From: Oryzias latipes
Taxonomy: Eukaryota; Chordata; Actinopteri; Beloniformes; Adrianichthyidae
DNA length: 64,000 nt
Assembly (NCBI RefSeq): GCF_002234675.1
Contig: NC_019866.2
Span: forward strand, 12,305,261-12,369,260
Reading direction: 5' to 3'
Below the pieces are notes generated by a model. That model was not told the DNA's origin and did not search any database. It saw only the letters and a program-made list of their open reading frames with translations. Of the stretch, positions 3,004-45,030 are shown piece by piece; position 1 is the first letter of the stretch; every line of letters starts with the position of its first letter. The position numbers and the translations under genes are program-made.

Positions 3004-3547
3004 TTCCTCCATGTCAGATTCAAGCCAAAAAGTTTGACAATTATGAATAATTTTCTGTTACGTATTAAGCAAAGACTAGCAAACAGTAACTCGGCTTGAC
3101 GTGGAAAACGGTAGATCAGTGTCAACAGCTGGTGTAACACCTGATCCTTCTGGCCCAAGGTCCACCTAGTGGCAGAACTTAGGAACTGTTCTGACTTCAG
3201 AAAGCAATGAGTGGCACAAAAAGGTAAGAAAGTATCCAGATGGAAATGTATTTTAAAATATGTTTATTTTTGAGCATCATTCAGTGAAAAAAAATGGATC
3301 ATCAAACTTTTCACATTTCAGTCCTGCTGGATATGTTTTTATATTCAGGCAGCCACATACAGATAATATGGTCAAATAAGGGATCTGTCACTCAGAACGA
3401 GCTCTCAAAATCCTAAAAGGTTATCTTTACCAGAAGCAGAGGTTTGCTTAATGAGACAAAACTAGTTGCTACATCATTTGTGATTGCATAGCAAACAAGT
3501 GCAAAAAACAGATAGAAGTCCTGTAATCCTTGCTGTCCAGTGAAGTC

Positions 3548-3612
3548 AGGATTCATCAGAGCTCTGGTGCTCCCGGACCGGGCTTTGTCCCAGAACACTT
3601 CATTCGCTGTCC
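3548..3612 (-). promoter_or_regulatory. SECIS element of msrb1 copy B (form 2)
   Basis: On the minus strand the segment contains AATGAAG, a helix (TTCTGG pairing with CCAGAG), an unpaired ACAAA, an apical mini-stem CCCGG/CCGGG and a closing CTGATG. That is the order and spacing of a form 2 SECIS. It starts about 60 nt after the stop of msrb1 copy B, nearly the same spacing as in copy A. Pairing below the quartet is weaker than in copy A. Confidence 0.75.
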
Positions 3613-3671
3613 ACACCTTCAGCGGCACAGGGAAACTTCCAGACCTGCCGCATTCCTTAATGACAGCTCAC

Positions 3672-6984: not shown

Positions 6985-8922
6985 GTATCTTGGCTTTAGC
7001 TTTTTTTTATATAATTTTTCATAATCTTTTCTCTAATTAAATTTAGCTGAATTTGCCATATTTTGTGTGTCAGACCCATGTTCAGGCTGAGTCTGAGTCA
7101 CGTCTGGTCCAAGTTGTTTCCACTGCTTACAGGATTTAGGTCAATTAGGTTGCCCTTAACTTAAGTAGGTAAAACTAGGTTTGAGTTCACAAACAATCAA
7201 GGATACCTGGGTACACTTAAGGTAATTTTCCTTTGCCAGGTTTTTGTTTTTCATGTTAGTGAGGTAAGCTGCTTTTCTAAATTTATTCGACATGTCTTTG
7301 CATTTTCTTCACAGCCAGAAGTCCAAAGTATTGCAGGTGGGTGACCGACATCCTGAAGTCAACAATTTGCATCTTTTTTGCATCTATTTGCATCTTTTCT
7401 TTGTTTTAGAGGCGATTCTATAGATTTTTTTGGTCAAACTTTGCTCACAAAATACGTATAACCAAAACTTATAACTAGTATTTTTTGACACTAGAACAAG
7501 ACACTAGTGATGATAAATAGTATCTGAATCGATGTTCTGGTACAACTTTTTTTATAGATCAGAGTGTAAATTAGGAAAGTGTTTCATACAATATTGAATA
7601 AATGAAGATATAAGTGATTGGCTTTTATTTTCCTGCATGGAGAACATTTAAAAAAATGCAGGTGCATCATGGTCTTACTGTCAGTGCTGCTTGTTCCACT
7701 TTTTAACTTATTTGAGCAAAACTGAATCCATAGCCTGAACTGGAATGCTGCCAAAACTCAGCCATCCCTGCAATCCACTCAGCAGCACAGACCTTCTCTT
7801 CTCTGTCAGCAAAACCGACTTGTGAAGAGAAATTGATCAGGGTAATCTAAGGTAGTCTGCAGCAGCTGACCTGCTGAAGGAGCAGCACTTTTTCCTGACT
7901 GTTATTGACACACAGCCCTGCATGGGTGATGACACACAAATGAATGAATATTAAACTTCAACAGCAAATATCTCCAATGGAAAAAATGTCTGGAAAAAAA
8001 AACAATTTATTTAGTTGTTTTTGTGAAAATCGGCTTTTATGAAGGTTAATCAGGTTTATTGATATTTCTGTTTATTTTGTATGTCCCTTAATTTGGTGAT
8101 CACAAGATAACTGTGTTACACAGTACATACACATCAACTCAAAGATGAATATTCATCATTATTTTCGTTTAATGGGAGGGTAATAATTAAAAAAAAGTAT
8201 GAGTGTACCCCTAGGAGGTGCCTGATGGAACTCCGTGTTTTTTCTGCACAGCAGGTCAAGACACAGGAAATGACATAACTTTTTCTAGACATTTTTTCTT
8301 ATTTTTTTCTATTTTTTTTGCTCTGTGTGTTATTTTGAGTTGAACTTTGGTTGGTTGAATTTAGAGAAGAAAGTTTTAAACATTTCATGTCTGAATTTAT
8401 TTCCTTTTTTTTTTTAAGAAAAACTCTGTTCAAGGTGATGCTAAGTGGAGTCCTGGATTAAAGGGTTTGAATAAAGGGACTAAGGAGTGTAAAGGGCTTA
8501 AAATTGTGTTTTTTAAGTTTGAAGAGCTCACGAGTTTTCCAGACACTGAAATTCTAAAACCTGTTACCCCAGCATGATTCCAAACATGATGAACCTGTTT
8601 CGGAAAGATAGAAAAAAGGAATAATTCTCTGATTTTCTGCAGGAGGGTGAATATGAGAAGATGACAATTTTGGACTTGTCTTGTTTAAAAACAGAACTGG
8701 ATCTTTTAACAGATTGAGCAAGACATTTCATTGTATTTTTTTAAGTGAACTTATCTGCAATGGTTTGAGGAATTAAGTAAAACTCTTTCAATAGATTTTA
8801 TACAATAACATTAATGTTTTTTCTCATTCCACACATGATTTTGCAGGGTCTAACAAGAATGCTACAAATCAAGAAGTTTACATTAACTAGTTGGTACCAA
8901 ATTCTACTCAGCTGTTTGCACC

Positions 8923-11900
8923 ATGGAGGAAAGTAAGCTCATCTTCAGCCTGGACCGCAAACATGAAGGCCCTTCTGTGGCTTTTACAAAAGAAAAACCC
9001 CAAACCAGGGAGTGTCAGTCGGACCACAGCCTTGAGATGGCTTTGGATCTGGGCCCAAGTGTTTACTCTAAGCCCCTCTTTCCCCTTCACTCCCCATCAT
9101 CTCCAGGATCTTTATCTGATCTGTCCATGATGTCAGAGGATCTTCTCATGACTACCGGGCTGGTCAAGTCCTCTTCCACAGACCTGAATACAAGTGAGAG
9201 CAGCACTCTAAGAGGCAAGCCGCTCCTCAGCTTGGTCAAGTCTTTCAGCACAGAAATCTCCCGCAGGACTGAGCCTGAGGTCAATCTCTCCATGTCTGAC
9301 TCCAAGCTTCATTTGCATCCCCGGAAGACAAACCAGAAGATCCGCGACCATAGGCCAGAGGAAGCGGGAAGGGATCAAAATGAAGATGGGTCATCACATC
9401 CTTCGGCAGACAACCTGTCTCCCACTGAACCACGAGGAAGTTCACTGATCGCTGACTTGGAGGACACACGGAGGAAGTTCTCAGAAGCTATGCAGGATCC
9501 CCTCAGCATGCTAAATAAGATCATGGGGGACGAGAACTCTGGAAGTCCCAAGCAGGGAAAAATGTCAGCTCCAGAGGACTCACCTCTTTCCCAAAGTTGC
9601 TGCAGGAGAAGCAGCATCAGTGACAATTCCGTCCTGAGATGCAGGAGGACAGACAGCGAGCACAAACTTATGTGTGACAATCCAGTCAGAAGACTTCAGA
9701 AGGAGTCACCAATAAAATCCAGCAACAGCCTGGAGCACTGCAGCCAGCGAAAAGACAGGCACTTAGAAATCTGCTCTTACGGGGATGTGATTCAGGTGGT
9801 GGAGCTCCAGGATGGAGCTGGGCGGACACATCAAAGAACTTATCCCAAGTCTGGAGTCACAATCATGGGTTCGGCTTTTCCCTTTCACTGGCTCTTCCCT
9901 GTGGGACTTCTGGCTTATGCCTTTTTTGTGCTGCCCCTGCCACCCTACGTTACAGGTCTTTCCCTGGGTGTGGCGTGCGGGTTTATGCTGGGCTTGGTGG
10001 TGGTGTTTGTGTTTTCCCCAAGACATGGAGGCTCCAGAGGGAAAACGGGACCTCGGAGCCACACAATTACAGAGGATCTGGATAGGGAGCTCACTGATCC
10101 AGGCTTTCTAGAGGTAATTCATTATTCAAATAAACAGACTCAGGAAAATGGCTGCAATGTGAGTGATATAGTTCCCATGGAGGAGAGCAGGCTGCTTTGT
10201 TTACCTGGTTTGATTACATGGAAATGAAGTGCAAAAGTGGAGCACAATAGATAAGTAATTGCTGCACTAAAGCTACCTTCAGGCCAAGCAGACTACGCAA
10301 TTTAGAGTTTAAAAATGGCTTCATCCAACTAGTTTCAGACATTTCTGCTGGAAAAGCAGATTTGGCTGTCACACCATGTACAGCTAACAAAACCAAACAG
10401 ATGTACACAAGTTTCACCTTTTGCATTACCTTTATGTCAGATTTTATGCTGTGTGCTCATGTATTAACATCCACAAAAAATACATTTTCCTGTTTTCATT
10501 TGTACCCTTTTTTTTATCTCAGGGCTGGATGAGTGAAGCATTTAGCTACGACCCTGAGACCTTCCACCCCTCCATCACTCATTCCGTTTATGTGACACTG
10601 GATGGCAGCCGGCTACGTCTGGCCTACCCACGTGCCAACATTCCCCGGTGGGCTTCATTTAAAGAGACGCACCACGAGGCAGCGTTTTTACACGCTCACA
10701 TTTACCAGCTGGGTAACAGTAAGGTCAGTGTGATGACGGGAGATGTGAAAATCACTTGATAGTCCGAGGGGAGCAGAAGAGAAAGCCCAGGTGACCTCTC
10801 ACCTGAGTCTCGTCTTTCTGCACCCTCTTTGTCACCCAACACAGAGGCGAAAGACCTGATGCACTCAGTAAACATGACTGTAATTATGGCGTTCAGACAC
10901 GTGAATGAAAGAAAACCGTTTTTATGCAGATGCCTTAAAAAAAAGTTGGGCGACTCAACGTAACCTTCTTTTCCTCCAGGTTTCCTTGGAGCCTCCTGGT
11001 TTGGCTCGTAAGAGGATATGGAACAGGAAGTACCCCATATGCATCACCCTGGCTGAGGGTGAGATAGGGGAGGAGACCTTTGACGAAGGGCAAGAGGAGG
11101 AAGAGAAGGCAGAGAAGCACACCATTCCAAGCCAGAGCTCCCCCGTCACCCTCTACCTGTTTGGCCGCACAGGAAGAGAAAAGGAGGAGTGGTTTCAACA
11201 CCTTTTGTTAGCTTCCAAAGCTGGAGCTGTAAGCAGCAATGAGGAGAATACAGGCAAGGTTTTAAATGAAACGCTGACATCTGTGACTGCAGTTACTTTA
11301 TTATAATCTAAATTTTATTTGTCTTTTAGAAACACCAAATAGTGGAGAAGCTTTCAAAGAAAATGCAGAGGACCTGAATGACCTCTCTGTAAAATCCAGA
11401 ACGATGCTGGACTACACCACCTACATGACTCAATTGATTGGCTCGAAAAGATGCAGCCCCGCCAACAGCCCCTGCCAAAGTGATAAGGGAAGCCCCTCAA
11501 TTTGTAAAAAGGTAAAAAAAAAAGTTTTGGTCTTTCTTTTTTCTTCTTTTGCCCACTATTTTTCATCTAATTTTCCTCATAAATGCCACTGACAACTCTG
11601 CGTCAGAAAATCTTCCTCTAGAGTGTTGCTCTTTTCTCAGATCTGCTTCAACCTAATGCTGGGTTCAGAAAAATACTATAAGATCCTGCTGGCACAGAAT
11701 GAAAAAGATTTAAACATGGAAATGTCTATTTTTTTGCAGGTTCATGCTGAAGATCATGGCTCTGAAGGTGAATCAGGGGGTGATCCATCTGCAGCGACTG
11801 AGTCAGCGAGGTGCTCTGCAGAGAGCCAGCCCACCTGGGTGAACTGCCTGGTGGGCAGAATATTCTGGGACTTTCTAGGAGAGAAATACTGGACTGACCA

Positions 11901-14900
11901 GGTGGCACACAAGATTCAGAAGAAACTCAGCAAAATTAAGGTGTGTGGGGTGGGGGCTGAGATCCCTTTTGAAGACATCTTGAAAACAGCCCTCGTTAGA
12001 TCAGGATCATTGCAAAATAAATATCAGTTAAATGAATGTCACAAAAAGGATGAAATGAATGTCAGCACTGAGCTGTTTGCAATGCTACAAGATTTCAGGC
12101 TTGTAAACAGTAAAAAACTCGTGTTTTGTGTGTGTGAGAGATTCTGCTGATGGCACAGGCTCGCTGCTCTCAAGACAGAAGTGCAGATTTACACGGATGG
12201 AACTGCAGCATCACATTAATCATTTTAAGTCCTTCCTGTCTCAAAGCATTTTTTATTCCCCCCTATTCATTCAAATGTTCACCCTGCAGGCATTCCTGCA
12301 TAGTCTTTTCTTTTGAAAATAGTATATTTGCCTTAGTGTTGCCTTCTTATCACAAAAAAACCCTGCTTATCTTACAGTTGCCATATTTCATGAATGAGCT
12401 GACCCTGGCTGATCTGGACATGGGTACCTGCCTTCCTCAGGTCCTACACACGTCCAAGCCTGCACTGGATCGCAGAGGTACTCGGTCTGTATTGCACTAA
12501 TGTTTGTCCGTCTGTCCTTAAATCAGGTCACAATCGAAATGTTTGGGTTTGGGGGTTTGTTGTGCACGCCTCGGTAGCCTGGCTTCCATTGTCTTTCTTA
12601 CTGAAGCGATTAGCAATCCTCTTATCCGGATTAACCATCAAGAACAAGCCAAAGCTGAGTACTGCTTATCCAAAGAATCAAGGAGAGATGTTGGATTTGC
12701 CTTTAAATCAAACTCAGATTTATTTGAAATCATTTCGCATTGAACATTGTGGAGAGATTAGATTAGTCTCCTCTAATCCTAAATGTTCTTTACTTTTGTG
12801 AAATTGTAAAAGTTTCCAGTTTGTGAGGGTAAAATTTAAATTTGAATCTAACTAAAGGACTGAAAAATTTGTTGTACAGTGGTGGACAAAATTGTTGGTA
12901 CCCCTCAGTTAAAGAAAGAAAGTCCACAATGCTCACTGAAATGACTCGAAACTTTCAAAAGTAACAATAAATTTAAATTTATTGAAAATTAAATAATCAA
13001 AATCAGCCATTACTTTTGAGTTGTTGATTAACAGAATTATAAAAAAAAACTAATGAAATAGGGCTGGACAAAAATGATGGAACCCAGAACTCAATATTTT
13101 GTTGCACAACCTTTTGATGCAATCACTGCGATTAAACAGTTTCTGTATTTGTCAATGAACCTTTGTCCAGCCCTATTTCATTAGTTTGTTTTTTTAAATA
13201 ATTCTGTTAATCAACAACTCAAAAGTAATGGCTGATTTTGACCATTTAATTTTGAATAAATTAAAATTTATTGTTACTTTTGAACATTTCAAGTCATTTC
13301 AGAGAGCATTGTGGACTTTCTTTCTTTACCTGAGGGGTACCAACAATTTTGTCCACCACTGTAGCTTGCTGTAAGTTGTGGTTTTCTTTCTGATTTATTC
13401 CGTTCACCTCATTTGACACCAAGGTCTGTGGCTGGAGCTGGAGGTGATGTACACAGGCTGCCTTCAGATGACTCTGGAGACTAAGATGAACCTTTCTAAG
13501 CTGGGAAAGGAGGAAGAGGATGAAGCTCACAGTGTTTCTGAAATGCAACATGTTGGGTAAGCATCATTTTAAGTCCCACTGCCATCATCTTTTGATCTAT
13601 TGCCCCAGTGGTCTTTTTAATTTATTATTATGCCACTTTAAGACAAAATTTAAAAATCTGTCATTTTCTAGGACATAGTTTCTGCAGAGCGGTAGTAGTT
13701 CGTTGGAAATTCACCTCTGAGTTGTGGGCGGGACCGACCCCTTTCCCCTTCCTGTTGCACAGCAGAGTGGAGCAGAAGGCTTGTGGCGTATTTTCAACAT
13801 CTTTCTTTAAACTGCATTTTTTTCGTCTGCTCCTGATTCATAATGATTTGAATAAAGATACTCAGAAATGCAATTGTGGTGTGGGTTCTGGTCCTTGCCC
13901 CTGAGCGCTGGGCCTCGCCAAATTTCCAACAGTGGCTGAGCCTGGTCGGACCATGTTTACAACACCTCTAGTGGACCCCCTCTTCTCCTGGGTGCCGTCC
14001 TCCTGGGCGGGGGCGGCTGGCCTCTGCCGTGCTCTTTCCTGGACCAACCGTGGGCCGGGTGGGTGGCTGCCTGGAGCGCGGGGTGGGTCTCCCTTGGGGG
14101 TCCTGGCCCGTACCTGGGGTTGGGGCGGGGGGATGCCCAGAACTCCTGGGTGGTGATGAGGTGCTTGTCTGGGGTTGTGGGCACTCTTTTGGGGCGGGGC
14201 CCTGCGTTGGGCCCTCCCTGCACAGCAGGGGGGACTGCTCTCCTTGTTGAGCTGGAGCTGCACTCTCTGTCCCCCCATGCCTCCCTGCTCTCTGGCTCTG
14301 GGGGCCCCGTGGTGGTCCTGCTGGCCCTGGCCTGGGTGGCAGATGTGATCACCTGGGGGGCGGTTACTCTCCATGTGCGGGTGTTTGGGGGTTCTGCCTG
14401 CCGCTGCTGTTACGGCGGGGGCTCTTGGTGTGGGGATGACTGGGCACTCTCCCTCCTTCTTTTCACATTCCACCATCCATTTTAGAAGAACATAAACACT
14501 CACTTAAGCTCAGGTGTTAGCTCACCTTTGCACTAATATTTTGCGTGTTTGAATGAAATATTTCACACTAATGTCTTTAAAGGCATAAGTATGCATGTGT
14601 GAACACTATCTGTATTGTGTACATGTTGACATGTGGACATTTTTGGAGCCAACAGGTGTGTTTATAACATTTGGGTGTGTGTGTGGACAGGCCCCGGCCC
14701 TTCAAGATTTGTATTACATCTGAACCTGACCGAAATAATAAACATCCAGCAACTTGTTGCTTTATGCTGCTTCATGGTTTAACCCCCCCTATAATCACCC
14801 TCCTATCCCCCCCCTCTCTCTAACATCCCTCTTTTTCTTCCCTCCTTTCCTTTTCCGTCCGGTCCAACACAAACGATTTTCAAATACGATTAAAATGAAT

Positions 14901-16145
14901 AAAGTTTGGCCTCAATTACAAAAGGGGTTTATATAGAAATAAATCTGGTTTGTCAGAAGATTCATAACCCCTGTTGTTAAAGTAAAATATGTCCAACACA
15001 AGAGGCCTTCAGCTCTTATCTGTCTGCCCAGCTGTTGAACAGGACAAGTAAAAAAAAAATGCTATTTTGAGCTTAATTTTCTTTCTACATGTCCTCAAAC
15101 ATCAGAAAATCTGTCACACGAACACGTTAAAAAGGCCAAAAACCACAATTGTTCAATGGTGTGGGTCTTTAAAATTCAACATGCTATAGCTTAGTGTTTA
15201 GTAATTCTGGTTTTGAAGCCAGCTCTAATGCCTAACTGGTGTGTTTTTCAGCTCTAAGGCAAGACTGTGTGTATTGGCTGATAGTGATGAAGAGTCGTCG
15301 AGTGCAGGATCCTCTGATGAAGAAGAATTTCCTGCATTTGAGCTGCAGGGATCTCAGGGGGAAAAGAGCAGCGGAACAGCAGCTGATGGGTAATTTGTGT
15401 TTTTTTCATGAATGTCATACAAAACTGAGTTTTAATGTAATAATGCTCTCCGGCAGAAGTGATGACTAACAAATTTTTACTGTATGTCGTCCACAGCCAC
15501 ACTGGTAGCAGCACAGGTAGAAAAATACTAAAATTTGTTGACAAGATAGCAAAGTCTAAATATTTCCAGAAGGCCACAGAAAACGAGTACATCAGGAAGA
15601 AGATAGCTGAGGTCTCCAACATGCCCCTCATGCTCAGTGTTGAGGTCCTGGAGCTTTCTGGAACTCTGGCGGTCAACATTCCTCCTCCCCCTACAGACAG
15701 GATATGGTAAGCACAGGCTCTGCCCCCTTTTTAGGCAGAAAGATGTTACAAGATTTGTTTGCCACAATCTCCCTTTGCTGTTTCAGGTACAGCTTCAGAG
15801 TGCCTCCCAGGTTAGACCTTCATGTGCGCCCTATGCTGGGAGAGCGGGAAGTCACCTTCACTCACGTGACTGAGTGGATTGAAAGAAAACTGCAGTGTGA
15901 ATTCCAGGTCAGTCCATCTGTGCGTTTGTTAGTTCACTTTTCCATTGGGTTCATGCAATGATCTGCGCTCAGATTTGTTTTTCTGCGCTTCTGAGCAGAA
16001 AGTGTTTGTGATGCCAAACATGGATGATCTCTATCTGCCGCTGATGACATCTGGGCTGGAAAATACACCTGCATCCCATCAGTCCTCTGGTCATTCTTCC
16101 TCCTACCAATCATCTGTGGAGTCTCAGGAGTACCTGACAGAATAA
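8923..16145 (+). CDS. tex2l: TEX2-family SMP-domain lipid transfer protein
   Basis: TEX2 proteins (related to yeast Nvj2) sit in the ER membrane and use an SMP tubular lipid-binding domain to move lipids at membrane contacts. Coding exons: 8923-10113, 10523-10723, 10980-11253, 11330-11511, 11740-11940, 12378-12477, 13424-13556, 15252-15389, 15497-15706, 15787-15907 and 15999-16145. They join in frame to 965 residues. Residues 1-300 are low-complexity and Ser-rich. Two membrane segments lie at about 320-365, then a PH-like region (about 398-600). The SMP domain runs from about 650 (GRIFWDFLGEKYW, then the ELTLADLDMG motif) into the last exons, with an acidic insert (SDEESSSAGSSDEEE) inside it. 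A stop lies upstream of the ATG in the same exon. The junction 11253/11330 uses a GC donor. Zebrafish has tex2 and tex2l; which one this is needs a tree, so the symbol is tentative. Confidence 0.93.
12877..13361. mobile_element. Palindromic Tc1/mariner-type MITE
   Basis: The element begins CAGTGGTGGACAAAATTG and ends with the reverse complement, with TA on each side, the Tc1/mariner target. The two arms (about 12,877-13,072 and 13,165-13,361) are near-perfect inverted copies of about 190 bp with a short centre, so the whole element could fold into one hairpin. It lies in a TEX2-like intron (12478-13423) and has no coding capacity. Confidence 0.8.
13600..14940. repeat. GC-rich composite interspersed repeat in a TEX2-like intron
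   Basis: Between TEX2-like exons the base composition changes sharply. About 13,880-14,470 is very rich in G+C with Gly/Pro/Arg-rich open frames on both strands. It is flanked by AT-rich segments that look like parts of the same or neighbouring repeats. The open frames have no domains, and neither strand shows splice context. A high-copy teleost repeat is my best reading, but I cannot name the family. Confidence 0.4.
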
Positions 16146-17294
16146 AGCCCCCTAGAGCCCACTCATGCAACTCTCCAGGGACTCTGATGAAAAAAGAAAC
16201 AATGCAACAGTGGCCCCAGCTGGATTCATGGAAAACTCAAAGCATGCACATCCATTGTGATCATTCAACATCAGCAAAGTTGAAACTGAAATATGGAAGC
16301 TTTGGACTGCAAACATCCCTTTAATCTTATAATAATGGTGCATGATGTTTAAGTGATTTCTTGACATTGAATAAAGTTTATTTAGACATTTGTGGAAATA
16401 TCTTTTTGACTTTAAATTCCAAATGTAAAATAAGGTACCTAAATTGAAAAAATACACTCATAACAGATAAGTTACAACAAATAATTACATAAAAAACTAG
16501 ATTGTTGAAGTTGGTTTTATTATTGTGTGGGGAAAACCCACAAATAGAGGCTTCTTCAGGCTTCCTCTGGTTGAGATTCTGGCATCGTCTTCAGGACGTC
16601 TTTCTTCAGCGGCAGTTAGTTTCTTATAGTGTTCGGATGTGAGATTTTTCCTACCCGTCACCATAAAAGCTCTTTTCTCATCAACAGTTAGGAAGCACCA
16701 ATGACCAAATTTGGAAGTGGTGTCACTACGCCACTCTTTATTGCATATATAAGCCTATTTAGGTTTTTCTTCTGTACTTAACAGTCATTTAGTTTCCTAT
16801 CCTGGATGGTAAAGCTGATTTTTAAGTAGATTTTTGTGTCCTTTTTTTTGGATGATAACAAACCTTGTTGATCTCCGTGCGGTGATGATCGCCTGTCTGC
16901 CCTGCACGATCTACCGTGAATCCCACACGAGAAGGATGCCAGGCTCCAATGCAAGCCACCTTCCTCAAGCCTTTTGTGAGTCTTCCTGGCTAGTTTCTTT
17001 GTGTGCCAGCTTTTATTTACACCTGACAGACCAAAACAAAAACAAAAAAGAAAACTGACTTGTCTGATTCGGTTCGGCCTGTCATGTTTTACATGACATC
17101 CATCACTTTTCCTAACCTTGAAGCCATGCCCCTTGGAGACACCAATGAAATCAATCATTTTGTCCAACAAACACATCTGTAGAAACAAAGAATCCATTCA
17201 AAAAAGAGATAATAACTCAGACGTTTTCAATAGTTAATAAATGTTGTTTTGTTACCAAGATGAACAATGTTCGTCTTTGAATTACAACTAAAGT

Positions 17295-17943
17295 TTGAAT
17301 TCTGGGAAATAGATAGATAGATAGATAGATATAAACTTTATTAATCTCCCAAAGGAGAAATTCAGGTGTCCGGTAGCAAAACACACAACCACACACAACA
17401 AACAACAGTAAAAAGACAGTTCACAAAATAATATCAGTTCATATCAGGCAGGTTCATTAAACAGCCTGATAGCTGTAGGGACAAATGAGTTCTTAAAGCG
17501 CTCTGTCCTGCAGCGCAGTGAAAGGAGTCTATTACTCCGTGTGCTCCTCTGACCTGACATCGTGTTGTGCAAAGGATGTCTGGGATTGTCCAGGATGCTC
17601 TGAGTCAAAGCCCTCATTCTCTTCTGCAGCACAGATCCCAGAGAGTCCACCCTCCTCCCGATCACAGATGCACATCTCTTAATCAGTTTGTCCAATCGAG
17701 TGCAATCCCTCGTGGTCATACTGCCACCCCAGCAGACAACCCCATGGAAGACAGCACTCGCCACAACCGACTGATAAAAGAGGAGCAACATGTCAGTACA
17801 TACATCAAAGGCCCTCAGCTTTCTCAGAAAGAACAGTCTACTCTGCCCTTTCTTATACAGAGCATGAGCCTGCTCCGACCAGTCCAGTTTGTGGTCAAGG
17901 TGCACACCCAAGTATTTGTAGGAGTCAACCACCAAATGACTTG
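17295..17943 (-). mobile_element. 5'-truncated LINE (L2-like), reverse transcriptase C-terminus
   Basis: A minus-strand frame reads YKYLGVHLDHKLDW, then ALYKKGQSRLFFLRKLR, VVCWGG and ILDNPRHPLH, ending SFVPTAIRLFNEPA. This is the C-terminal reverse-transcriptase region of fish non-LTR retrotransposons of the L2 or a related clade. The 3' end carries a short GATA-type microsatellite tail at 17,306-17,332. The copy lacks its 5' part, the usual result of incomplete target-primed reverse transcription. It sits inside the rpl3l pseudogene, so it inserted after or during that gene's decay. Confidence 0.8.
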
Positions 17944-18105
17944 AGAGGATGATTTTAGCAAAAGAAAGGTATGCATGGGACCTGCGACAGACTGGCGAAC
18001 AGTCCAGGGTGTACCCTGCCTTCGCCCACAAGTGGCTGGGATAGGCTCCAGCAGCCCCGTGACCCCGAAAGGGATAAAACGTTAGAAAATGAATGAATGA
18101 AATGT
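17944..18105 (+). mobile_element. SINE 3'-tail fragment
   Basis: The segment GCGACAGACTGGCGAACAGT onward, ending in GAATGAATGAAA, matches the 3' half of the complete SINE at 52,163-52,543 in this window. The tRNA-like head is missing. It abuts the LINE fragment, and both interrupt the rpl3l pseudogene. Confidence 0.75.
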
Positions 18106-18640
18106 ATGCATTCAGCAATATTGATAATATAGCTTATATAAATAAAGTGGTTCCAAGATAAAGGTATGATTCTCCAGTAGCCCCCTCCTCCTTATTAATG
18201 TTGTTGCTGATATCTGAGCCCGTATGTGGGGGTGAACAATAACCCGGGTTACTGAGCAGTATTTCTTCATCGCACCAAATTCCTTGTCCAGCTGTTTCTT
18301 CCCAGTCTCATCCTGCCCACGTCTTACTGTTTTTAGTGAAAGCCTTTTTCTTTCCCTTGAGCCTGAAAAGTCCAAGAAAAAAACAAAATGTCATGAGAAA
18401 AAACTTTGATCGGTCAGCAGCAAGTATGAGGGAGTTGCACCAGTTTTTGTAGAACCTCCGTCTGCACTCATCACTAAGGTGCTCAGCAAAGATTGTTTTT
18501 CAAGCACCATAACCCTCTGAAAGTTTTGATGTATCCCACAACCCCCACCACGATGACAGGTGGAGTCTCAATGATGGTGACTGCCTCAACTTCTTCTCGC
18601 TTTGATTTCTCTCTGGAGGAGACGGGTCCATCATGAGATT

Positions 18641-19954
18641 TTTACTGCACGCTTTATGACTGCCCCACATGTTTGAAACACCTCGTTCTACTTACCGGTA
18701 GATGTATTGCAGAACCTAAAGTAAAACATTTTCTCAGACTTTCCTTACAACAATGGTGCAAAGCCTTGTTGTACGTACCGAGAAAAAGACGATGATGATG
18801 ATTTTGCAAAGAAAACATATTTAAATGTAGATTTTCATAAAATACCAGCATCTACAGAACACAGTGGATTCATAAACCATCGTTGCAAAAATGCTCATAA
18901 CAATGAGATTTTCACTTCGTGAAATCAATGACATAAAATTCGCCATTAAAAAATGAAGTGAGCATGGTGTCCGAATTGCTTTTAAAATCCAGGGCACTAC
19001 ACGGTCCAGCACTAAATAGTTTTTTAGTTGTTAGGGAGTAGGGTGGGAATTCGGACACAGCCTAAGTTTATTTTAGGTAAGATACAATTTTACACATATT
19101 AGGAAAGAAGTTATCAATCTATTAATAATTTGTTTCTCTTTCTGTTGCACTTATGCCAACAAAGAGGATTTAATGCCCTACGTTAAGCATTTTATTTTAG
19201 CTACTGAATTCAATACAATAAAGTTACAAATACCCTACAATGTTTGTCCTGTTGTTATTTCTTTTTTCTTTTATCATAAAGAGCAAATGGGTTAAAAGCT
19301 AACTATAATGGTGTAATAGATACTAGATGGATTGTGTATTGAGAATAACCCATTTTTGAATTTATTTTAATCAAACTGCAAATTAGGTTTTGTGTTTCAT
19401 TGCCAAATGTGATGTAAAGTAATTTTAAGTCTAATTGTATTGTTAGGTCATCAGGTTGCTCTTGTTCAATGCAGGGGTTTGCTTTGGTAAAATGGTCGCC
19501 CCTACCCACAATGCTCTGTGTGTTAGTCATGTGGTCAGTTGAACTGCATACACATTTGATAGGTAAACTCTAATATCACCCAGAGGATTCTGAAGGTAAA
19601 ACTCAAGTTTGAAGTGGGAGGGGCATATTGACTGGAGTTTGCTCCGCCCAATGTGTCAAAAATGGCTCTGTGGGCGGGGCTAAGTTCACTGAGTGTTGTT
19701 CAGTGCACACATAGGTTCACATAACTGACAATAGTAACAAAAAAAAATAATTGCTCACCATGACAATGGTGAGCAATTAACATCACCCAGTGAGGGTCCT
19801 TGGGCAAGACCCTTTATAAGGGAAAAACGGAATAGAAAATGAATGGGAAAAAAGAATAAATAAATAAATAAATTGACAACCCCTCCCCCCACCCAGGGAT
19901 GTCATAACCAACAATTCATATACAAATGGTTCAAAGATTTGACATGTGATTTAC
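18641..19954. other. Intergenic sequence, no intact gene
   Basis: The first 60 bp may hold a further eroded stretch of the rpl3l pseudogene (a weak match to the segment before EAVTI). The remainder is AT-rich with only short unsupported frames. No RNA gene or mobile element ends were recognised. Confidence 0.4.
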
Positions 19955-20640
19955 TGATGTGATTATAAATACAAATAAAGTTATGTATTGTAAAAACTGT
20001 ATCCCTTCATTGTTATTATTCAAATCAACGTCTCCACGGTTGCATGATTTCACATTTCTGTTGGGCTTTGGGCTCTTCTTTGTGATGTCACAGATTGTTT
20101 CTATAACAACACCCTTAGAGATCAACACACTGCAAAGTGACTCTAAGACGTCAACACGCAGAAAGCTTCGTTCGTTCAACGATTTTCTCCAAATCGTGAA
20201 AACAAAACAAAAGTCATGGAAAACTCAACTGAGCTCCGTTCCATTTGTGAAGGTACATTTAAAAAGCAGAACAGATTCAATTTTAAGATAAATTCAGGTT
20301 TATGATTTAATATATTCATATTTTATTATTTTACATTCAATAAATGATCTTAGAAGCTTTGTTAGGGAAGTGGTGACATTTTGAAATGTTAGACGACAAA
20401 CATGCAGGTTATGTTGTTTAAACAGATGTGATATTAGTCTGTGGGGATAATTTATTCTACTCTGATGACGTGCCATCAGAGAACTGGGGGGTATTCCAAA
20501 AAGCAGGTGATGTGAGTTAACACGGTAAATTTGGGGCTAAGGAAGTAGATAACCTCAGCATTTGGTTCCAAATATGAAGGTATGTTTCAGGGTATGTCAC
20601 GTTGCCATATAGTAACTCATGCAACTTTGAACATAACCTG
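19955..20640 (+). repeat. Duplicated segment, copy 1 (carries a spare kinase exon 1)
   Basis: This segment matches 22,337-22,990 almost base for base over several hundred bp, including a shared stretch with CTGTATCCCTTCATTGTTAT. It contains ATGGAAAACTCAACTGAGCT, which opens a 37-nt exon at 20216-20252 ending in a GT donor in the same phase as exon 1 of the PIM-like gene downstream. The two copies lie about 2.4 kb apart in direct orientation, with a hAT element between them. The exon could be an alternative start of the kinase gene or a relic. Confidence 0.8.
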
Positions 20641-21395
20641 GTCTGGAGCAGGTTCCAGAGGCAATAAAGTTACTCCAGCTGGCCCTCACTCTACCAGCTA
20701 CAACAGCATCAGTGCAGAGGTCATTCCCTGCATTAAAAAGACTAAAAACATACTGTAGGGGCGGTCACGTGCACATTGGGTCTGCTGTCTGAGATGGCAG
20801 CACGGGATTGTGGGATATAATCCCCCTTGCCTGCTCTGAGGTTGGTGCGATGTACAATGTTAGGCTTTTCAAAGTGAAGGTCAAAAGGTCACAAAGGTCA
20901 ACTTGTTTTGACAGTAGTCATGTGTGATATTTATGAACTAATTTTGAACAAAACGAGTCTTGTTTCCTTGGTAACGAAATAAATATTCTGTGGAGAATTT
21001 ATATGTATTTGCATGTGTCTTTTTGCTGTTACTTGGTGTTGAATGAAGGGTGAAATACTAAGTTCTTGAAATTGAAAAACTGAGGAATCAATGCCTCACC
21101 AGCCCTCAACCTCACTGCACGTCACTGACACACACACACAACACACGCACGCACATTCACTGCTCTAACCTTTACTTATAAATTAAGTCCATATGCCTCT
21201 CCTTCTGGACAAAAATCTCCAAACTACAGTAAAAGTCCTTCTTATCTTCTTTTAGTTTGAGAACTCCCTCAGTCCCTGGGGATTTGTTGGTCCACCATTT
21301 GATCATCCATTATTTATGCATGTCTGATTGAAATTCAAGCTTTGAGAAAATTTTTATTCCATCCACCATGTTTGCAGTCAAAACAGAACAGAATA

Positions 21396-22245
21396 GACTA
21401 GACCAGTTTTTTTCAACCAGTGTGCCGCGGCACACCACTGTGCCGTGGGAGATGGTCAGGTGTCCCGTGGGAAATGGCCCTCATTAACTGACCTAACAAC
21501 ATTTTCCATCTCCAGGATATTAGCTCTTTGTCCATCCAAACAGGCCCTGTTAAACACTGTTAGGAATATAAAAGATCATAAAAGACCCTTTTCTTTGTGT
21601 TTATTTGATTCTATTAAATACGTTTTGATAAGAATGATGGTAGTGCGATTTAGCCGCAGCTACAGCTGTTTACGGAAAAGTCCCACCCCTTTAAGTGTCT
21701 CCACCAATCATTCTTGGAGGCTTAATCACACGTCATCAGTCTGACCAATTAAAAGTCCTTATAGTCTTTACTTCCTTGTTCCGATTTTGCTCATAAAGTC
21801 GCTCAGTTCTAACAAAAATTCCAGCTAAAGCTCGTCTTTAGCGGTGTAGCTTTCCACGGGATCCGGTATCAGACCGTGGAAAAAATCAACAAAACCATGA
21901 AGCTCAGAGAAGAGAGTCTGTCTGCATTCGGCGGTTGTTCGCACTACATCTCCCATGAGGCATTGGGTTAAAGTGACAGCGTCCTTAGTGCACAATGAAT
22001 CTTCATTGTTAAATGTCTTGAAACCACAACGAACACACTTCAAACAATTTTTAAAGCTGCAACTACCAGCTTTTTTTGCCACAATTATCACAAAAATGCA
22101 TGTGAGATTGCGGAGGGGATGTAGATCAATAGAGACTATGAGTTTCTCATTTTTTTTTTTTTTTGGATGCTGGTGTGCCGCGGGATTTTTGTTAAGGTTA
22201 AAGTGTGGCGTGGCTCAAAAAAGGTTGAAAAACACTGGACTAGAC
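21396..22245. mobile_element. Non-autonomous hAT element with 8-bp target duplication
   Basis: The element spans 21404-22237, beginning CAGTTTTTTTCAACC and ending GGTTGAAAAACACTG, terminal inverted repeats of hAT type. It is flanked by a perfect 8-bp duplication GACTAGAC at 21396-21403 and 22238-22245. Sub-terminal GTGCCGCGG motifs occur near both ends. There is no transposase. The intact target duplication suggests a fairly recent insertion, between the two duplicated segments. Confidence 0.9.
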
Positions 22246-22336
22246 CACAATAAAACACAACACAAAAAAAACAAATACACTTATCAAGCCTTATAGCTAC
22301 AATAAAATGAACACGAGCACATGGGCAATTTAGTAA

Positions 22337-22990
22337 TTTGACTATAAATAGAAATAAAGTTATGTATTGTAAAAACTGTATCCCTTCATTGTTATTATTC
22401 AAATCAACATCTCCACGGTTGCATGATGTCACAGATTGTTTCTATAGCAACACACTTAGAGATCAACACACTGCTAAGTGACTTTGAGAAGTCAACACGC
22501 AGAAAGCTTTGTTCGTTCAACGATTTTCTCCCAAAACACATTTTATTGTCGAAATCGTCGAAAAAGTGATGGAAAACTCAACTGAGCTCCATTCTATTTG
22601 TGAAGGTACATTTAAAAAGCGGAACAAATTTGATTTTAAGATAAGTTCAGGCTTATGATTTAATATATTCATATTTTATTATTTTACATTCAATAAATGA
22701 TCTTAGAAGCTTTGTCAGGGAAGTGGTGACATTTTGAAATGTTAGACGACAAACATGCAGGTTATATTGTTTAAACAGATGTGATATTAGTCTGTGGGGA
22801 TAATTTATTCTACTCCGATGACGTGCCATCAGAGAGCTGGGGGGGTATTTCAAGAAGCAGGTGATGTGAGTTACCACAATAAGTTTGAGGCTAAGAAAGC
22901 AGATAACCTCAGCTTTTGGTTCCAAAAATGGAGGTATGTCTCAGGGCATTCAAGTTGCCGTAGCAACTCATGCAACTTTGAACACAACCT
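22337..22990 (+). repeat. Duplicated segment, copy 2 (carries kinase exon 1)
   Basis: Direct copy of 19,955-20,640. It holds the version of exon 1 (22569-22605) that lies nearest the kinase exons. The copies differ by scattered substitutions and small indels, so the duplication is young but not brand new. Confidence 0.8.
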
Positions 22991-25900
22991 GGTCTGGAGC
23001 AGGTTTAGTTGAAGGTTAGTCGCTTTCAGAGAGCTGAAGGAGCATAACGTGTCCATTTCAAGATGATTTAGTGGATGAAGAAGCTCAGATAATACTTTTT
23101 CCACTGAGGGTGATAAGACCACGTATGGATGTTGGAAAGATCAACTTTTTTACATTGATCTAACTTAGTTATTTGCTTCTTAAGATAAATATGTTTTTGA
23201 GTTCAGTCAACCTATAAATAACACGTAGTTATCAGACATAGTTATTTTACTTTCATTCAAATTAATTCAATTGTACTGTTGTTAGATTGGCAGTGCAAGG
23301 AATTGTGGGATACCATTCCCTTTGCCTATCTGGGCAGATTTGTTTAATTCTTTCTTCACCATGAGTGAGAGGGTGATGAGTTTATTTAGCACCACTGGTG
23401 CTCCTTTTATATTTTAATAACATAAGTTAAAATCAGAGGTATGATAACTGTATGTATGTTATATATTGCAAATCCAAACCGTTTCTTTCATTTCAATGAT
23501 ATAAAAATTAGTATATCTGCAGCCTCAAACTTAGACATATATGAGAGTTCAAGAAGTATGGAAGATGGAAAAACATTCAATTAAATTGGAGTAAAATGAC
23601 ATTTAGTTGGATAAATATGTAATTTCGAGTTGTATAAACAATTATTGAGTTTGATAGACATAAGAAATTAGATTGAATAACATATAAGTTGCATTTCTAG
23701 CACAGACTAGATGACACATTTGTTATATTATTAGGATGCATTTATTGATGCTAGCTGAGGCACTGCTTTATATACAGCCACCTTGAATCGGATGTAGAGT
23801 GTTGTTTTGACCCAGTGTTGTGTTGCTCTTTTTGTAGAACACATCAGCGGTGTGGTCCAACAACATTCATCTTTTGCTGAAAAGGATGGGACCACATCAA
23901 GAAAAAGAAAATCCTCGGCTGAAGAGGTGCCTGCTGGGAAAAAGTTAAAACTCTCCCAGACCAGCAGCAGCCAAGAACCAAAACAACTTGACTCCGAGTC
24001 TGACAGCGGTGAGATGATTGTAATACTATCTGTTGCCCCTCACTGTTAACAAATGGATTACTGTGAAAAATATTTGACCTTAGCAGCTGATTTGGACTCA
24101 ATCTGACAGAAAGATCATTGAAACAGTGAAAAATAAAATCATTGTTTTAAATGATTTCCCTCCCATCAGAAACAACATAAAATAATATAAACTAACGAAA
24201 GTTCCCTTTATGAGATTAAAATTCAGGCGTTTAAGCCTGTTAATCAGAAATGTTCAATCTTTTTTATCTGATTTATAAATAATGAAATGCCATTTGAGTT
24301 GTGTGACGTTCAATGACATGTAGTTTGTAAACAGTAAAAAGCAGTGACAGGCACACCCCCCCCACACACCCCCCCCCCCCCCCACACACACACACACACA
24401 CACACACTGCTCTAACCTTTAACACCTTTACTTGACTATAAAAATCATAAAAATGATCAGAATCTGGCATTCAAGTGGCATTTCTAGCACAGATTAGATG
24501 ACACATTTGTTATATTATTAGGATGCATTTATTGATGCTAGCTGAGGCACTGCCTTATATACAGCCACCTTGAATCGGATGTAGAGTGTTGTTTTGACCC
24601 AGTGTTGTGTTGCTCTTTTTGTAGAACATATCAGCGGTGTGGTCCAACAACGTTCATCTTTTGCTGAAAAGGATGGGACCACATCAAGAAAAAGAAAATC
24701 CTCTGCTGAAGAGGTGCCTGCTGGGAAAAAGATAAGACTCTCCCAGACCAGCAGCAGCCAAGAACCAAGACAACTTGACTCTGAGTCTGAAAGCAGTAAG
24801 ATGATTTTCAGTTAACAGATGTATTGCCTCATAAAATATTTGACCTTAGCAGCTGATTTGGACTCAATCTGACAGGAGGATTGTTTAAAAAGTGAAAAAA
24901 ACTGATTTTGTTCAATTAAATTATATTGGAGAACGCTTTTCCAAAAAAACTGTATTTGGTAAAATAAGTCAAAAGATAAATATATTTAAGATAGAAATAT
25001 TTGTTATAATGTTTCAAAGCTCATCTTCTGCAATCTCTGTGTGTTGGTCATTGAAACATTTTTCACATGTAAAATTTCAGATTCTTGCTGATAAATATGG
25101 TGTTCAATAATTTCACATAAAAATTGTATTTAGTTTTAATGCATATTTAAAAAAAAGTATACATATTGATGTCTAATGTGTACAGTAAAATAACACCAGC
25201 ACTTCAATTGAGCACAAATTATTCTGTGAGGAACAGAAGATGTCATGTTGATCACTTAACTCACTTAATTCCATTCAAGACACAAATTTTGTCAAAGGTT
25301 TGGCAGAAAACTTTTGCATTTAAACACTTATCTGTCACTTTTAAACATCAAATAAAAAGATAGAAGTAGAATGAAATACTTAAGTTAAATACTCAACAAA
25401 GCTTGATGAAGAGATTAAGAAGTTAAAGCAAAAGTTTAATGCAACCCTTCAATGTTTCAGTCATAAAACTGTTGAACTTTAACTAAACTGTTAATTCAGG
25501 ATTATTCCCTTTGAAAAACTGTCAACTCTGTTTTTCAGTAGCCAGAGTTGATCCAGAACTGATCCGATCCAAATCGGCTGCTGTAATCCACTTCATACAA
25601 TCAGCAAACGCTTTTGCATGTCTTTAAATCAATCCTGTTAAAGGAGATTTGAAAAGTTCTGTTTTCTTTTCACACTTTTCCCTCAGACAAAAAGGAATCC
25701 TTTTATTCTGGGTTAACTCTTTCTTTAGCAACAGTGTCTAAAACATGTGTCTGCTCTTCTTCTCATCTTCAGAATGTGACAGTTCTTCAGAGGCCGGAAG
25801 TTCTTCCCAAGAAAAAAGCTCTTGTCCACGGAAAAGTTGGAAGAGCCACTCTTCATGCGATGCTCTGCTTGAAGGTGAAAATAATAGTCAGGTTTCTTAA

Positions 25901-27382
25901 TCAGTGAAGGAAGACTTTCAAATCCTCTTGAATTACTTTTTCCTCACAGTCATAACTGAATGTTTTTGGTGTGTCTCTGTAGTAAAATACAAGAAAGAAG
26001 GCCTGCTGGGAGAAGGAGGCTATGGATCAGTTTATGCTGGCTATCGCATTTCTGATGGGTTACCAGTAAGTGTGACGTAGAGCAGCTCTTGATGGAGCAG
26101 ATCAGGAGGGAAATACTCACCAAAGCTCTGTTTGTGTCCTACAGGTAGCAATCAAATACATCCCATCTGAGAACGTGATTAGAGATCTGGTAAGTTCAGC
26201 TGCTGTCTCTGCTGCTCACCTGAAGTCTTCTGACCCTCATCTTACACTTTTCTGGCATTTTGCAGGCTGATGATGGGAAGCAGCTCCCCACTGAGGTAGC
26301 CATCATGCTAAAAGCAGCTGATGGAAGAAATGGACCTGTGGGAACCTCAGCCTCCGTCTCCCTGCTGGATTTCTACGACCTGGAAGACGACTTAATCCTG
26401 GTTTTAGAGAGACCAAACCCTGTTGAGAGTCTCTTTGAATACTCACTAGACAAAGACAACTTAGAGGAGAAAGACACCAAGGTAGGCTGGTTCTGAAATG
26501 ACGGCCTGCTCACAGCATGTCTTTGTTTTCTCTTTCTCCCTCTGAGGAGGTCTTCCTCCATGTCCTTCTTCTCAGAGTATTCTGTGTTTCCTGTCTTCCT
26601 CAGATCATTATGGAACAGATTGTCCAAGGTTTGAAAGAGCTTGAAGAAAAGAACATCTTTCATCGGGACATCAAGTTGGAGAACATTTTAATAGAGACTG
26701 GCTCTGACGTCCCACGAGCACGCCTCATTGATTTTGGAATGAGCTCTTTCACAGAGAGGGACACAGTTCATGAGATGGACTATGGTGAGTGATCAGCTCT
26801 CTGCTTCTCTTTTTCACTATTTGGGGGGGCAGATCGCACATATTTAAAGGAGCTTTCCTGTCCAGTTATTTCTGTAGCTCATATAATATCAGAACATGAA
26901 AATAAAAATGTGAATTTCAGAGAAAAATAAGATGTATGGTGACACAGCGATCCAATAACTGAGCTGGGAACAGCTGACAGGAAGACACATACAGTTGAGA
27001 GTAAAACTAAAATGTGTTTCATTTTTGTGTGTTTTGCAGACAAAGCTGACCATGACCCCCCTGAGTTTAATTTTGGATCCTACTCAGCCGGGCCCACCAC
27101 AGTGTGGCAGCTAGGGGTTGTGTTGTATGAAGTTATGCACGGAGACCTATTCAACACAAATGATTTTCTGGAGAAAAAACAGGAAATAAGCCAGGAGCTG
27201 TCCAGAGGTAAAAACACCTTCCCTACTTGGCTGAGTGGCTGGATCTCTGCATCTGTGTGCTTCATTCTTTTATGTTCTTCTTCACAGAATGCAAGAACTT
27301 CTTAGAACAGTGTTTAGCTCCACTTCCAGAGAACAGGCCCACGCTAGACGAGCTCCTTCTTCATCCGTGGCTTCAAAGATAA
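22569..27382 (+). CDS. PIM-like serine/threonine kinase
   Basis: Exons: 22569-22605, 23838-24008, 24625-24795, 25773-25874, 25983-26065, 26145-26189, 26266-26481, 26604-26784, 27040-27207 and 27288-27382. The frame stays open throughout: 422 residues with both copies of exon 2, or 365 with one. The N-terminal part (MENSTELHSICE, then KRKSS and KK-rich stretches) is disordered and may hold nuclear localisation signals. The catalytic domain has every key element: glycine loop GEGGYGSVYAG, VAIK lysine, TEVAIM glutamate, HRDIKLEN, DFG and PPEF in place of APE, with VWQLGVVLYE resembling the PIM hallmark. PIM kinases are constitutively active survival kinases; fish genomes carry very many divergent PIM-like genes of unknown role. 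Exons 2a and 2b are the same length (171 nt), and both enter and leave in phase 1, so either or both can be spliced. The start ATG was chosen because its exon ends in matching phase. Substrate is unknown. Confidence 0.85.
23690..24800 (+). repeat. Tandem duplication of about 787 bp containing kinase exon 2
   Basis: The block starting GCATTTCTAGCACAGA near 23,690 recurs near 24,477 and runs through exon 2 in each copy. A C-run and a CA dinucleotide repeat at about 24,355-24,407 lie at the end of the first unit, near the duplication joint. The exon copies differ at a few positions (for example KLKL versus KIRL near the end). Confidence 0.9.
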
Positions 27383-27934: not shown

Positions 27935-30900
27935 AAAAAAAACATTTTATAAGCGTCAGTGCAATAAAAATTGGGGAAAGTTATGGGGTAAACTGTGACA
28001 TTGTTATTAGGGGGGGTGGTGGCGGGCCAAAGGGGGGGAGGCGGTAGGGGGGGGGCATGCCTCCTCTGTTAATACCTGGTTGCTGGCCCCTCTTCAGAAA
28101 ATGCCCCCCCCGCCCAAAAAAAAATTATTTATTTAGCCTTAATGCAATAAAAATAGGTTGAGATATAGGGGAAACAGTGACGTTGTCATTAGGACGGGTG
28201 GTGGCGGGCCAAAAGGGGGGGGGGGCGGTTAGGGGGGCCATGCCTCCTCTGTTAATAGCTGGTTGCTGGCCCCTCTTCAGAAAATGTCCCCCCTCCAAAA
28301 ACAAATTATTTAGCCTCAATGCAATAAAAATTAAGGAAAGATATGGGTTAAACTGTGACGTTGTCATTAGGACGGGTGGTGGCGGGCCAAAGGGGAGGGG
28401 GGGGGGGGTATGGGGGGCCATGCCTCCTCTGTTAATAGCTGGTTGCTGGCCCCTCTTCAGAAAATGCCCCCCCCCAAAAAAAAAAATATTTATTTAGCCT
28501 TAATGCAATAAAAAATAGGTTGAGATATGGGTGAAACAGTGACATTGTCATTAGGACGGGTGGTGGCGGGCCAAAGGGGGGGGGGGGGGGGCATGCCTCC
28601 TCCGTCAATTGCTGGTTGCTGGCCCCTCTTCAGAAAATGCCCCCCCCTAAAGAAGAACATTTTTTTAGCGTCAGTGCAATAAAAATTGGGGAAAGTTATA
28701 GGATAAACTGTGGCATTGTTATTAGGGCGGGTGGTGGCGGGCCAAAGGGGGGAGGGGCGGTAGGGGGGGCCATGCCTCCTCTGTTAATAGCTGGTTGCTG
28801 GCCCCTCTTCAGAAAATGTCCCCCCTCCAAAAAAATTTTTTATTTAGCCTTTATGCAATAAAAAATAGATTGAGATATAGGGGAAACAGTGACGTTGTCA
28901 TTAGGACGGGTGGTGGCGGGCCAAAAGGGGGGGGGGGTAGGGGGGGCATGCCTCCTCCGTCAATTGCTGGTTGCTGGCCCTTCTTCAGAAAATGCCCCCC
29001 CCCCCCAAAGAAAAATTTTTTTTTAGCGTCAGTGCAATAAAAATTGGGGAAAATTATAGGGTAAACTGTGACATTGTTATTAGGGCGGGTGGTGGCGGAC
29101 CAAAGGGGGGGGGGGCGGTTGGGGGGGCCATGCCTCCTCTGTTAATAGCTGGTTGCTGGCCCCTCTTCAGAAAATGTCCCCCCTCCAAAAACAAATTATT
29201 TAGCCTCAATGCAATAAAAATTAGGGAAAGATATGGGTTAAACTGTGACGTTGTCATTAGGACGGGTGGTGGCGAGCCAAAGGGGGGGGGGGGGGGAGGG
29301 GGGCATGCCTCCTCCGTCAATTGCTGGTTGCTGGCCCCTCTTCAGAAAATGCCCCCCCCTAAAGAAGAACATTTTTTTAGCGTCAGTGCAATAAAAATTG
29401 GGGAAAGTTATAGGATAAACCGTGGCATTGTTATTAGGGCGGGTGGTGGCGGGCCAAAGGGGGGAGGGGCGGTAGGGGGGGCCATGCCTCCTCTGTTAAT
29501 AGCTGGTTGCTGGCCCCTCTTCAGAAAATGTCCCCCCTCCAAAAAAATTTTTTATTTAGCCTTTATGCAATAAAAAATAGATTGAGATATAGGGGAAACA
29601 GTGACGTTGTCATTAGGACGGGTGGTGGCGGGCCAAAAGGGGGGGGGGTAGGGGGGGCATGCCTCCTCCGTCAATTGCTGGTTGCAGGCCCCTCTTCAGA
29701 AAATGTCCCCCCTCCAAAAACAAATTATTTAGCCTCAATGCAGTAAAAATTAGGGAAAGATATGGGTTAAACTGTGACGTTGTCATTAGGGCGGGTGGTG
29801 GCGGACCAAAGGGGGGGGGGGGGCGGTTGGGGGGGCCATGCCTCCTCTGTTAATAGCTGGTTGCTGGCCCCTCTTCAGAAAATGTCCCCCCTCCAAAAAC
29901 AAATTATTTAGCCTCAATGCAGTAAAAATTAGGGAAAGATATGGGTTAAACTGTGACGTTGTCATTAGGACGGGTGGTGGCGGGCCAAAGGGGAGGGGGG
30001 GAGGTATGGGGGGCCATGCCTCCTCTGTTAATAGGTGGTTGCTGGCCCCTCTTCAGAAAATGTCCCCCCCCCCCCAAAAAAAATTATTTATTTAGCCTTA
30101 ATGCAATAAAAAATTAGGTTGAGATATGGGGCAAACTGTGACGTTGTCATTAGGACGGGTGGTGGCGGGCCAAGGGGGGCGGTAGGGGGGTCCATGCCTC
30201 CTCTGTCAATTGCTGGTTGCTGGCCCCTCTTCAGAAAATGTCCCCCCCCCAAAAAAAATTATTTATTTAGCCTTAATGCAATAAAAAAATAGGTTGAGAT
30301 ATGGGGTAAACTGTGACGTTGTCATTAGGACGGGTGGTGGTGGGCCAAAAGGGGGGGGTAGGGGGGGCCATGCCTCCTCTGTCAATTGCTGGTTGCTGGC
30401 CCCTCTTCAGAAAATGCCCCCCCCCCCAAAGAAAAAAATTTTTTTTGCGTCAGTGCAATAAAAATTGGGGAGAGAGATGGGGTAAACTGTGACATTGTTA
30501 TTAGTGTGGGTGGTGGCGGGCCATTGGGGGGGGTGGGGGGGGGCATGCCTCCTCTGTTAGCCTCAATGTAATAAAAAATAGGTTGAGATATGGGGCAAAC
30601 TGTGACGTTGTCATTAGGACGGGTGGTGGCGGGCCAAGGGGGGCGGTAGGGGGGGCCATGCCTCCTCTGTCAATTGCTGGTTGCTGGCCCCTCTTCAGAA
30701 AATGTCCCCCCTCCAAAAACAAATTATTTAGCCTCAATGCAGTAAAAATTAGGGAAAGATATGGGTTAAACTGTGACGTTGTCATTAGGGCGGGTGGTGG
30801 CGGACCAAAGGGGGGGGGGGGGGGCGGTTGGGGGGGCCATGCCTCCTCTGTTAATAGCTGGTTGCTGGCCCCTCTTCAGAAAATGTCCCCCCTCCAAAAA

Positions 30901-43483: not shown

Positions 43484-45030
<1,547 letters not shown>

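Follow-up and report, generated by a model that had tools for sequence, protein, structure and literature searches.

The stretch of DNA analysed here, which we call the window, is 64,000 nucleotides long and covers positions 12305261-12369260 of contig 8 in one assembly of Oryzias latipes (medaka; 734,051,031 bases in 25 contigs). On its minus strand, from position 18612 down to position 16556, lie parts of six exons of a uL3 gene in their proper order, which we refer to as the relic. The relic and the genes that mark its flanks are listed in Table 1. Published work is cited by PMC number.

Gene order around the relic

Two tandem msrb1 genes are located on one side of the relic, and ndufb10 and rps2 on the other. 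The order and strands are msrb1 (-), relic (-), ndufb10 (+), rps2 (-), and this is also the order and strand pattern that we take the human genes MSRB1-RPL3L-NDUFB10-RPS2 to have, in agreement with the earlier note, which had placed the pieces at the syntenic position of RPL3L. A whole-genome search with PF10249 gave three candidates, all of which were scored; two matched, both at the ndufb10 locus in the window.

The note's placing of the relic between msrb1 and ndufb10 was correct as to position, but this interval also holds a tex2-like gene, pieces of a kinase gene and a tandem array. The first of these is a multi-exon gene on the plus strand (8887-16145) with a match to PH_SMPa below the cut-off, presumably resembling TEX2; it and the relic lie tail to tail, with about 400 bases between them. 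The kinase pieces (23798-27302, plus strand; Pfam Pkinase E 7.4e-13 at 26502-26789) include frames at 23798 and 24585 that by eye are near copies of each other, and we assume that they may come from a fish Pim-like kinase. Between them and ndufb10 there is a tandem array about 9 kb long (27935-37164), rich in GC and skewed towards G, with periods near 113, 178 and 354 bases. Both msrb1 genes carry an in-frame stop codon at what we take to be the selenocysteine site of human MSRB1.

The name 'RPL3L-NDUFB10-RPS2 locus' is used in PMC13320957, and another paper describes linkage of TBL3, RPS2 and RPL3L in Tetraodon, chicken and mammals and a very similar arrangement in Takifugu (PMC2121648).

Table 1. 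Positions of the relic exons, the repeat inserted among them and the flanking genes, counted from the first base of the window; residue numbers are those of the human protein
Feature	Position	Strand	Evidence and remarks
Two tandem msrb1 genes, flank marker	2516-5062 (2516-3003 and 3862-5062)	-	tblastn with a presumed human MSRB1 sequence
Probable rpl3l exon 9, C-terminus, stop TGA	16556-16612	-	by eye
Putative rpl3l remnant, exon 8 3' end	16662-16724	-	residues 369-389; tblastn E 3.8e-5
Putative rpl3l remnant, exon 6 first part	16864-17022	-	residues 231-282; PF00297 E 2.5e-16; whole-genome match E 1.9e-13
Putative rpl3l remnant, exon 5 end	17116-17164	-	residues 214-229; tblastn; sits after 42-codon in-frame loss
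Probable start of rpl3l exon 5 (four codons), acceptor CAG before	17165-17176	-	by eye; alone too short for significance
Repeat insertion in relic intron 4	17330-18110	-	copy search of genome
Putative rpl3l remnant, exon 4	18226-18362	-	residues 123-167; PF00297 E 1.9e-4 (under cut-off); tblastn
Putative rpl3l remnant, coding exon 3	18440-18612	-	residues 68-122; start placed by reading; PF00297 E 2.4e-9 and 7.2e-8; tblastn
ndufb10, flank marker	41760-43007	+	tblastn; PF10249 search
rps2, flank marker	43487-45015	-	tblastn with a presumed human RPS2 sequence

Structure of the relic

Seven reading frames in the relic region were scanned with the PF00297 profile. Five of them matched it, with E-values between 4.7e-4 and 2.5e-16; at 19.7 and 21 bits, two of these matches fell just short of the Pfam cut-off of 22 bits. 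No match was obtained for the repeat frame or for the frame of exons 8-9. Collinear tblastn matches with human RPL3 and with the presumed human RPL3L were obtained for exons 3 and 4, the end of exon 5, the first half of exon 6 and the end of exon 8. When the intact rpl3 protein of the same genome was used as the query, six HSPs scored between 35.8 and 71.6 bits, and the best of 500 Markov shuffles of the 3-kb region reached 27.7 bits.

The intact rpl3 gene is found on the same contig as the relic, 9 Mb away at 3.257 Mb. Splice sites are canonical throughout its eight coding exons (2-9); its product was counted as 403 residues with the ATG supplied by hand, not located in the sequence. DNA identity between the relic and the corresponding rpl3 exons was 69.9% for exon 3 (bases 15-169 of 169), 73.7% for exon 4 (bases 4-135 of 136), 78% over 50 bases for the end of exon 5, 73.8% for exon 6 (bases 15-158 of 263, with CAG immediately preceding its first base) and 68.3% for exon 8 (bases 58-120 of 120). 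In these alignments exons 3, 5 and 8 of the relic stop exactly where the corresponding rpl3 exon does, and exon 4 nearly so; the gaps between the pieces are thus introns, and the preservation of exon ends and introns indicates that the relic is a copy made at the DNA level and not a retrocopy. The donor GT is intact in exons 3 and 8. The at least five uL3 segments in order, with intron-like gaps, that the earlier note had described were recovered by Pfam, tblastn and alignment to rpl3 exons, at about the same places and on the minus strand, as parts of exons 3, 4, 5, 6 and 8, to which exon 9 was added by eye.

The probable exon 9 reads five residues longer than RPL3. Its match is marginal, being equalled by shuffles of the 300-bp region in 36 of 2000 cases with the RPL3L tail, 6 of 2000 with human RPL3 and 8 of 2000 with rpl3 of this genome, and the assignment is only suggestive. 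An extension of four residues has been described at the C-terminus of RPL3L (PMC10119107).

Lesions and repeats

The relic contains three +1 frameshifts of one extra base each, near 18500 in exon 3, at 18316 in exon 4 and near 16972 in exon 6. From exon 5, 42 codons are deleted in frame, and the donor of exon 4 and the acceptor of exon 9 are gone. Protein- and DNA-level comparison recovered neither the remainder of exon 6 nor the beginning of exon 8 in the relic, and tblastn and DNA alignment gave no exon 7 in its region. For exon 2, searches at the protein level (window positions 12000-26000) and at the DNA level (16401-26000) gave chance-level matches only, the best with E 0.25; exon 1, which is little more than the ATG, is likewise absent from the pieces recovered. 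The relic therefore carries several disabling lesions, as is characteristic of a unitary pseudogene, and the frameshifts and internal loss noticed earlier are borne out by them.

Transposon insertion had also been claimed, and one repeat insertion was seen in the relic, in intron 4. The 604 bases at 17330-17933, presumably a LINE-like 3' end, have copies elsewhere that match them at about 100% (best 40 of 4152 candidates), and for the segment 17934-18110 no copy besides itself was present among the matches listed (best 40 of 4152). We considered this repeat as the cause of the gene loss and rejected it: since it sits in an intron and hardly differs from its other copies, it is a recent, late passenger. 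Upstream of exon 3, repeats cover about 18801-19703 among the matches listed (best 40 of 4316 candidates). Some of the transposon load, at the least, was probably acquired once the gene was already dead. The LINE-like repeat also contains a 229-codon open frame (17444-18133, minus strand) that matches Pfam ALKBH8_N with E 4.7e-9, perhaps because this model picks up LINE ends.

Other uL3 genes in the genome

Three whole-genome searches for uL3 were performed and all first-look candidates were scored (13 of 13, 13 of 13 and 12 of 12). Besides the intact rpl3 and the relic, they returned one piece on contig 5, one on contig 11 and a chance-level match on contig 10 (E 4.55). The piece on contig 5 (32628890-32629186, minus strand) corresponds to positions 838-1156 of the rpl3 coding sequence with 82% identity and retains a 104-codon open frame. 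It was rejected as the missing rpl3l, because it passes through the exon 6/7 and 7/8 junctions without introns and carries a frameshift, which identifies it as a piece of an rpl3 retrocopy. The piece on contig 11 was also considered and was read from its alignment as mitochondrial, presumably mrpl3.

An intact rpl3l or another uL3 paralog, for which the earlier note had proposed searching the whole genome, was not found in this assembly, in which gaps are possible. Searches that detect a decayed exon at E 1e-13 would be expected to show an intact paralog as well, unless it lies in an assembly gap. We also looked for coding compensation in rpl3, and no site was found at which it has an RPL3L state that is absent from human, zebrafish and Xenopus RPL3.

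Codon history of the relic

The relic and rpl3 were compared over 194 codons. Identity at the first, second and third codon positions was 79, 87 and 46%, and synonymous change was saturated (pS 0.76), whereas pN was 0.163. The two share 141 of the 194 residues in this comparison; in 2000 runs of a neutral model, in which rpl3 received random mutations up to an equal nucleotide distance, 88.5 +/- 4.5 residues remained shared, with a maximum of 105. Once the frameshifts are stepped over, the 194 codons of the relic contain no in-frame stop; neutral runs contained about five on average, with a minimum of zero. Saturated synonymous change combined with conservation of the protein shows that the relic is neither a recent copy of rpl3 nor a copy that was dead from birth, an argument that is independent of the presumed RPL3L sequence. 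Judging from its codons, the relic is a paralog that was long under purifying selection and died later.

Of 150 otherwise invariant residues, 25 are altered in the relic, which together with the absence of in-frame stops suggests a late death in the history of the gene. If all 25 changes postdate it, the neutral distance since death is at most about 0.08 per site, as a rough bound.

Which paralog the relic represents

The only RPL3L sequence in our comparisons is a presumed human one, for which a PDB search gave no match of its own. Overall identity does not separate RPL3L from RPL3: over 194 residues, the relic shares 143 with the presumed human RPL3L, 142 with rpl3 of this genome, 141 with Xenopus RPL3, 140 each with human and zebrafish RPL3 and 129 with the Drosophila protein. 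Human RPL3L departs from a residue common to four vertebrate RPL3s at 25 diagnostic sites; in the relic, 10 of these show the RPL3L state, 9 the RPL3 state and 6 another residue. Neutral runs gave a mean of 1.5 RPL3L states and a maximum of 7, and none of 2000 reached 10; this control is a neutral one, and a constrained rpl3 copy could gain some RPL3L residues by convergence.

The best tree groups the relic with RPL3L, with UFBoot values of 74 and 71 (194 residues and a single presumed RPL3L), and is better than a tree in which the relic is sister to rpl3 of this genome by 6.2 and 5.8 log units; long branches could also favour the grouping of the relic with RPL3L. Four alternative placements of the relic, its position as sister of this rpl3 among them, had p-values of 0.12-0.26 in the AU test and none was rejected; one was excluded by bp-RELL only. 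The earlier note had regarded a tree with the pieces inside a recent rpl3 duplicate as evidence against its own interpretation. The best tree does not have this form, but the AU test on 194 residues does not reject it either (p 0.19-0.21), and it is the saturated synonymous change that speaks against a recent duplicate. Since the tree separates the paralogs weakly and identity does not separate them, orthology to RPL3L rests mainly on the genomic place.

Interpretation of the relic

RPL3L (uL3L) is the heart and skeletal muscle paralog of RPL3. The relic shares with it gene order and strand, rpl3-like intron positions, uL3 sequence and several RPL3L-type residues, and differs in being broken, with exons 2 and 7 not found, frameshifts, and a splice donor and an acceptor lost, so that a whole protein is impossible. 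We consider it very probable that the relic is a unitary pseudogene of rpl3l that decayed at its ancestral site in Oryzias latipes. Gene order and strand, the positions of introns, the lesions, past purifying selection and the lack of any other uL3 paralog among the whole-genome matches all speak for the in-place decay first proposed from the letters of the window. The data show an old, intron-bearing paralog of rpl3 that was long under purifying selection and has since lost exons, gained three frameshifts and lost splice sites, amid the neighbours of RPL3L; that it was RPL3L and not another old uL3 copy is indicated mainly by this place.

It is unlikely that the relic is a decayed DNA-level duplicate of rpl3 that is unrelated to RPL3L and landed here by chance. 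Such an origin is not formally rejected by the tree (delta lnL 6.2, AU p 0.19) and rpl3 itself is on the same contig, but the combination of saturated synonymous sites and a conserved protein points to an old, long-constrained copy, and site, strand and neighbours match RPL3L, as do 10 of the 25 diagnostic sites. The breakage might be limited to this strain or be an assembly error in a species with a working rpl3l, as a single assembly is behind the data; we judge this very unlikely, because independent lesions, missing exons and an insertion across 2 kb are unlike sequencing error, and the 25 altered invariant residues also argue against it. There is scant reason to believe that the relic is still useful, either as a truncated uL3 protein or as a non-coding RNA: stop-to-stop frames of 52-139 codons are present, but exon 2 was not found, there are three frameshifts, splice sites are lost, intron 4 holds a repeat, and across the 64,000-nt window Rfam gave no match at its gathering score. 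A processed, i.e. retrotransposed, rpl3 pseudogene does occur on contig 5, but for the relic this origin has a negligible probability, as introns and exon ends are kept at rpl3 positions.

Relation to known systems

The reading of the relic as an rpl3l lost in place corresponds to a known kind of event, lineage-specific paralog loss. A unitary pseudogene arises when a single-copy gene is lost where it stands, as with GULO in primates; the relic is alike in having decayed at the ancestral site with no working copy found in the genome, and differs in being a paralog of a ribosomal protein gene. Of 14,552 duplications counted for ribosomal protein genes in eight mammals, 14,524 were RNA-mediated (PMC4219774), so most ribosomal protein pseudogenes are retrocopies.

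The literature searched, which consisted mostly of papers outside subscription and was available in excerpts, contained no mention of an rpl3l relic in medaka. A 2007 synteny study did not see NOXO1-linked markers, RPL3L included, linked in medaka and zebrafish (PMC2121648); this is weak evidence that rpl3l is absent, because rps2, one such marker, is present here. Excerpts of other papers mention an L3-like protein in muscle proteomics of Nile tilapia (PMC12846687, figure legend), an L3-like protein of Poecilia (PMC6473766, table row) and RPL3L in tongue sole skin (PMC11071164), and percomorph relatives thus appear to retain the gene, with the reservation that '-like' protein names in fish papers can be ambiguous. 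Vertebrate RPL3L proteins show good conservation of the residues close to the A-site pocket, with Tetraodon as the fish example (PMC10119107). For zebrafish, this use of Tetraodon as the example and a table in which the counterpart of human RPL3L is zebrafish rpl3 (PMC12698088) are thin hints that would allow a loss.

Meaning for muscle ribosomes

Judging from gene content, heart and muscle of medaka appear to run on ordinary rpl3 alone; every cytosolic ribosome, also in heart and skeletal muscle, would contain the product of the single intact rpl3. In Rpl3l knockout mice Rpl3 increases (PMC12931454), and the likeness to these mice is muscle with RPL3 only, which in the fish is deduced from its genes. 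The loss in fish would be natural and old and that in mice is engineered.

Whether RPL3L makes a specialised ribosome or shares load with RPL3 is debated, and mouse studies disagree on its effect on elongation (PMC12931454). Variants of human RPL3L have been linked to atrial fibrillation and cardiomyopathy (PMC10119107); with rpl3l lost, medaka could not directly model RPL3L disease. A natural loss would at the same time be a free experiment, in which the heart must translate contractile mRNAs without RPL3L. We tentatively propose, as a possibility that we hold somewhat short of probable, that medaka, a standard laboratory animal, permanently lost its muscle uL3 and uses Rpl3 ribosomes in heart and muscle, with no RPL3L-type gain in rpl3; if zebrafish is also without the gene, RPL3L would have been lost more than once in fishes, and a specialised muscle ribosome may be dispensable in some vertebrates.
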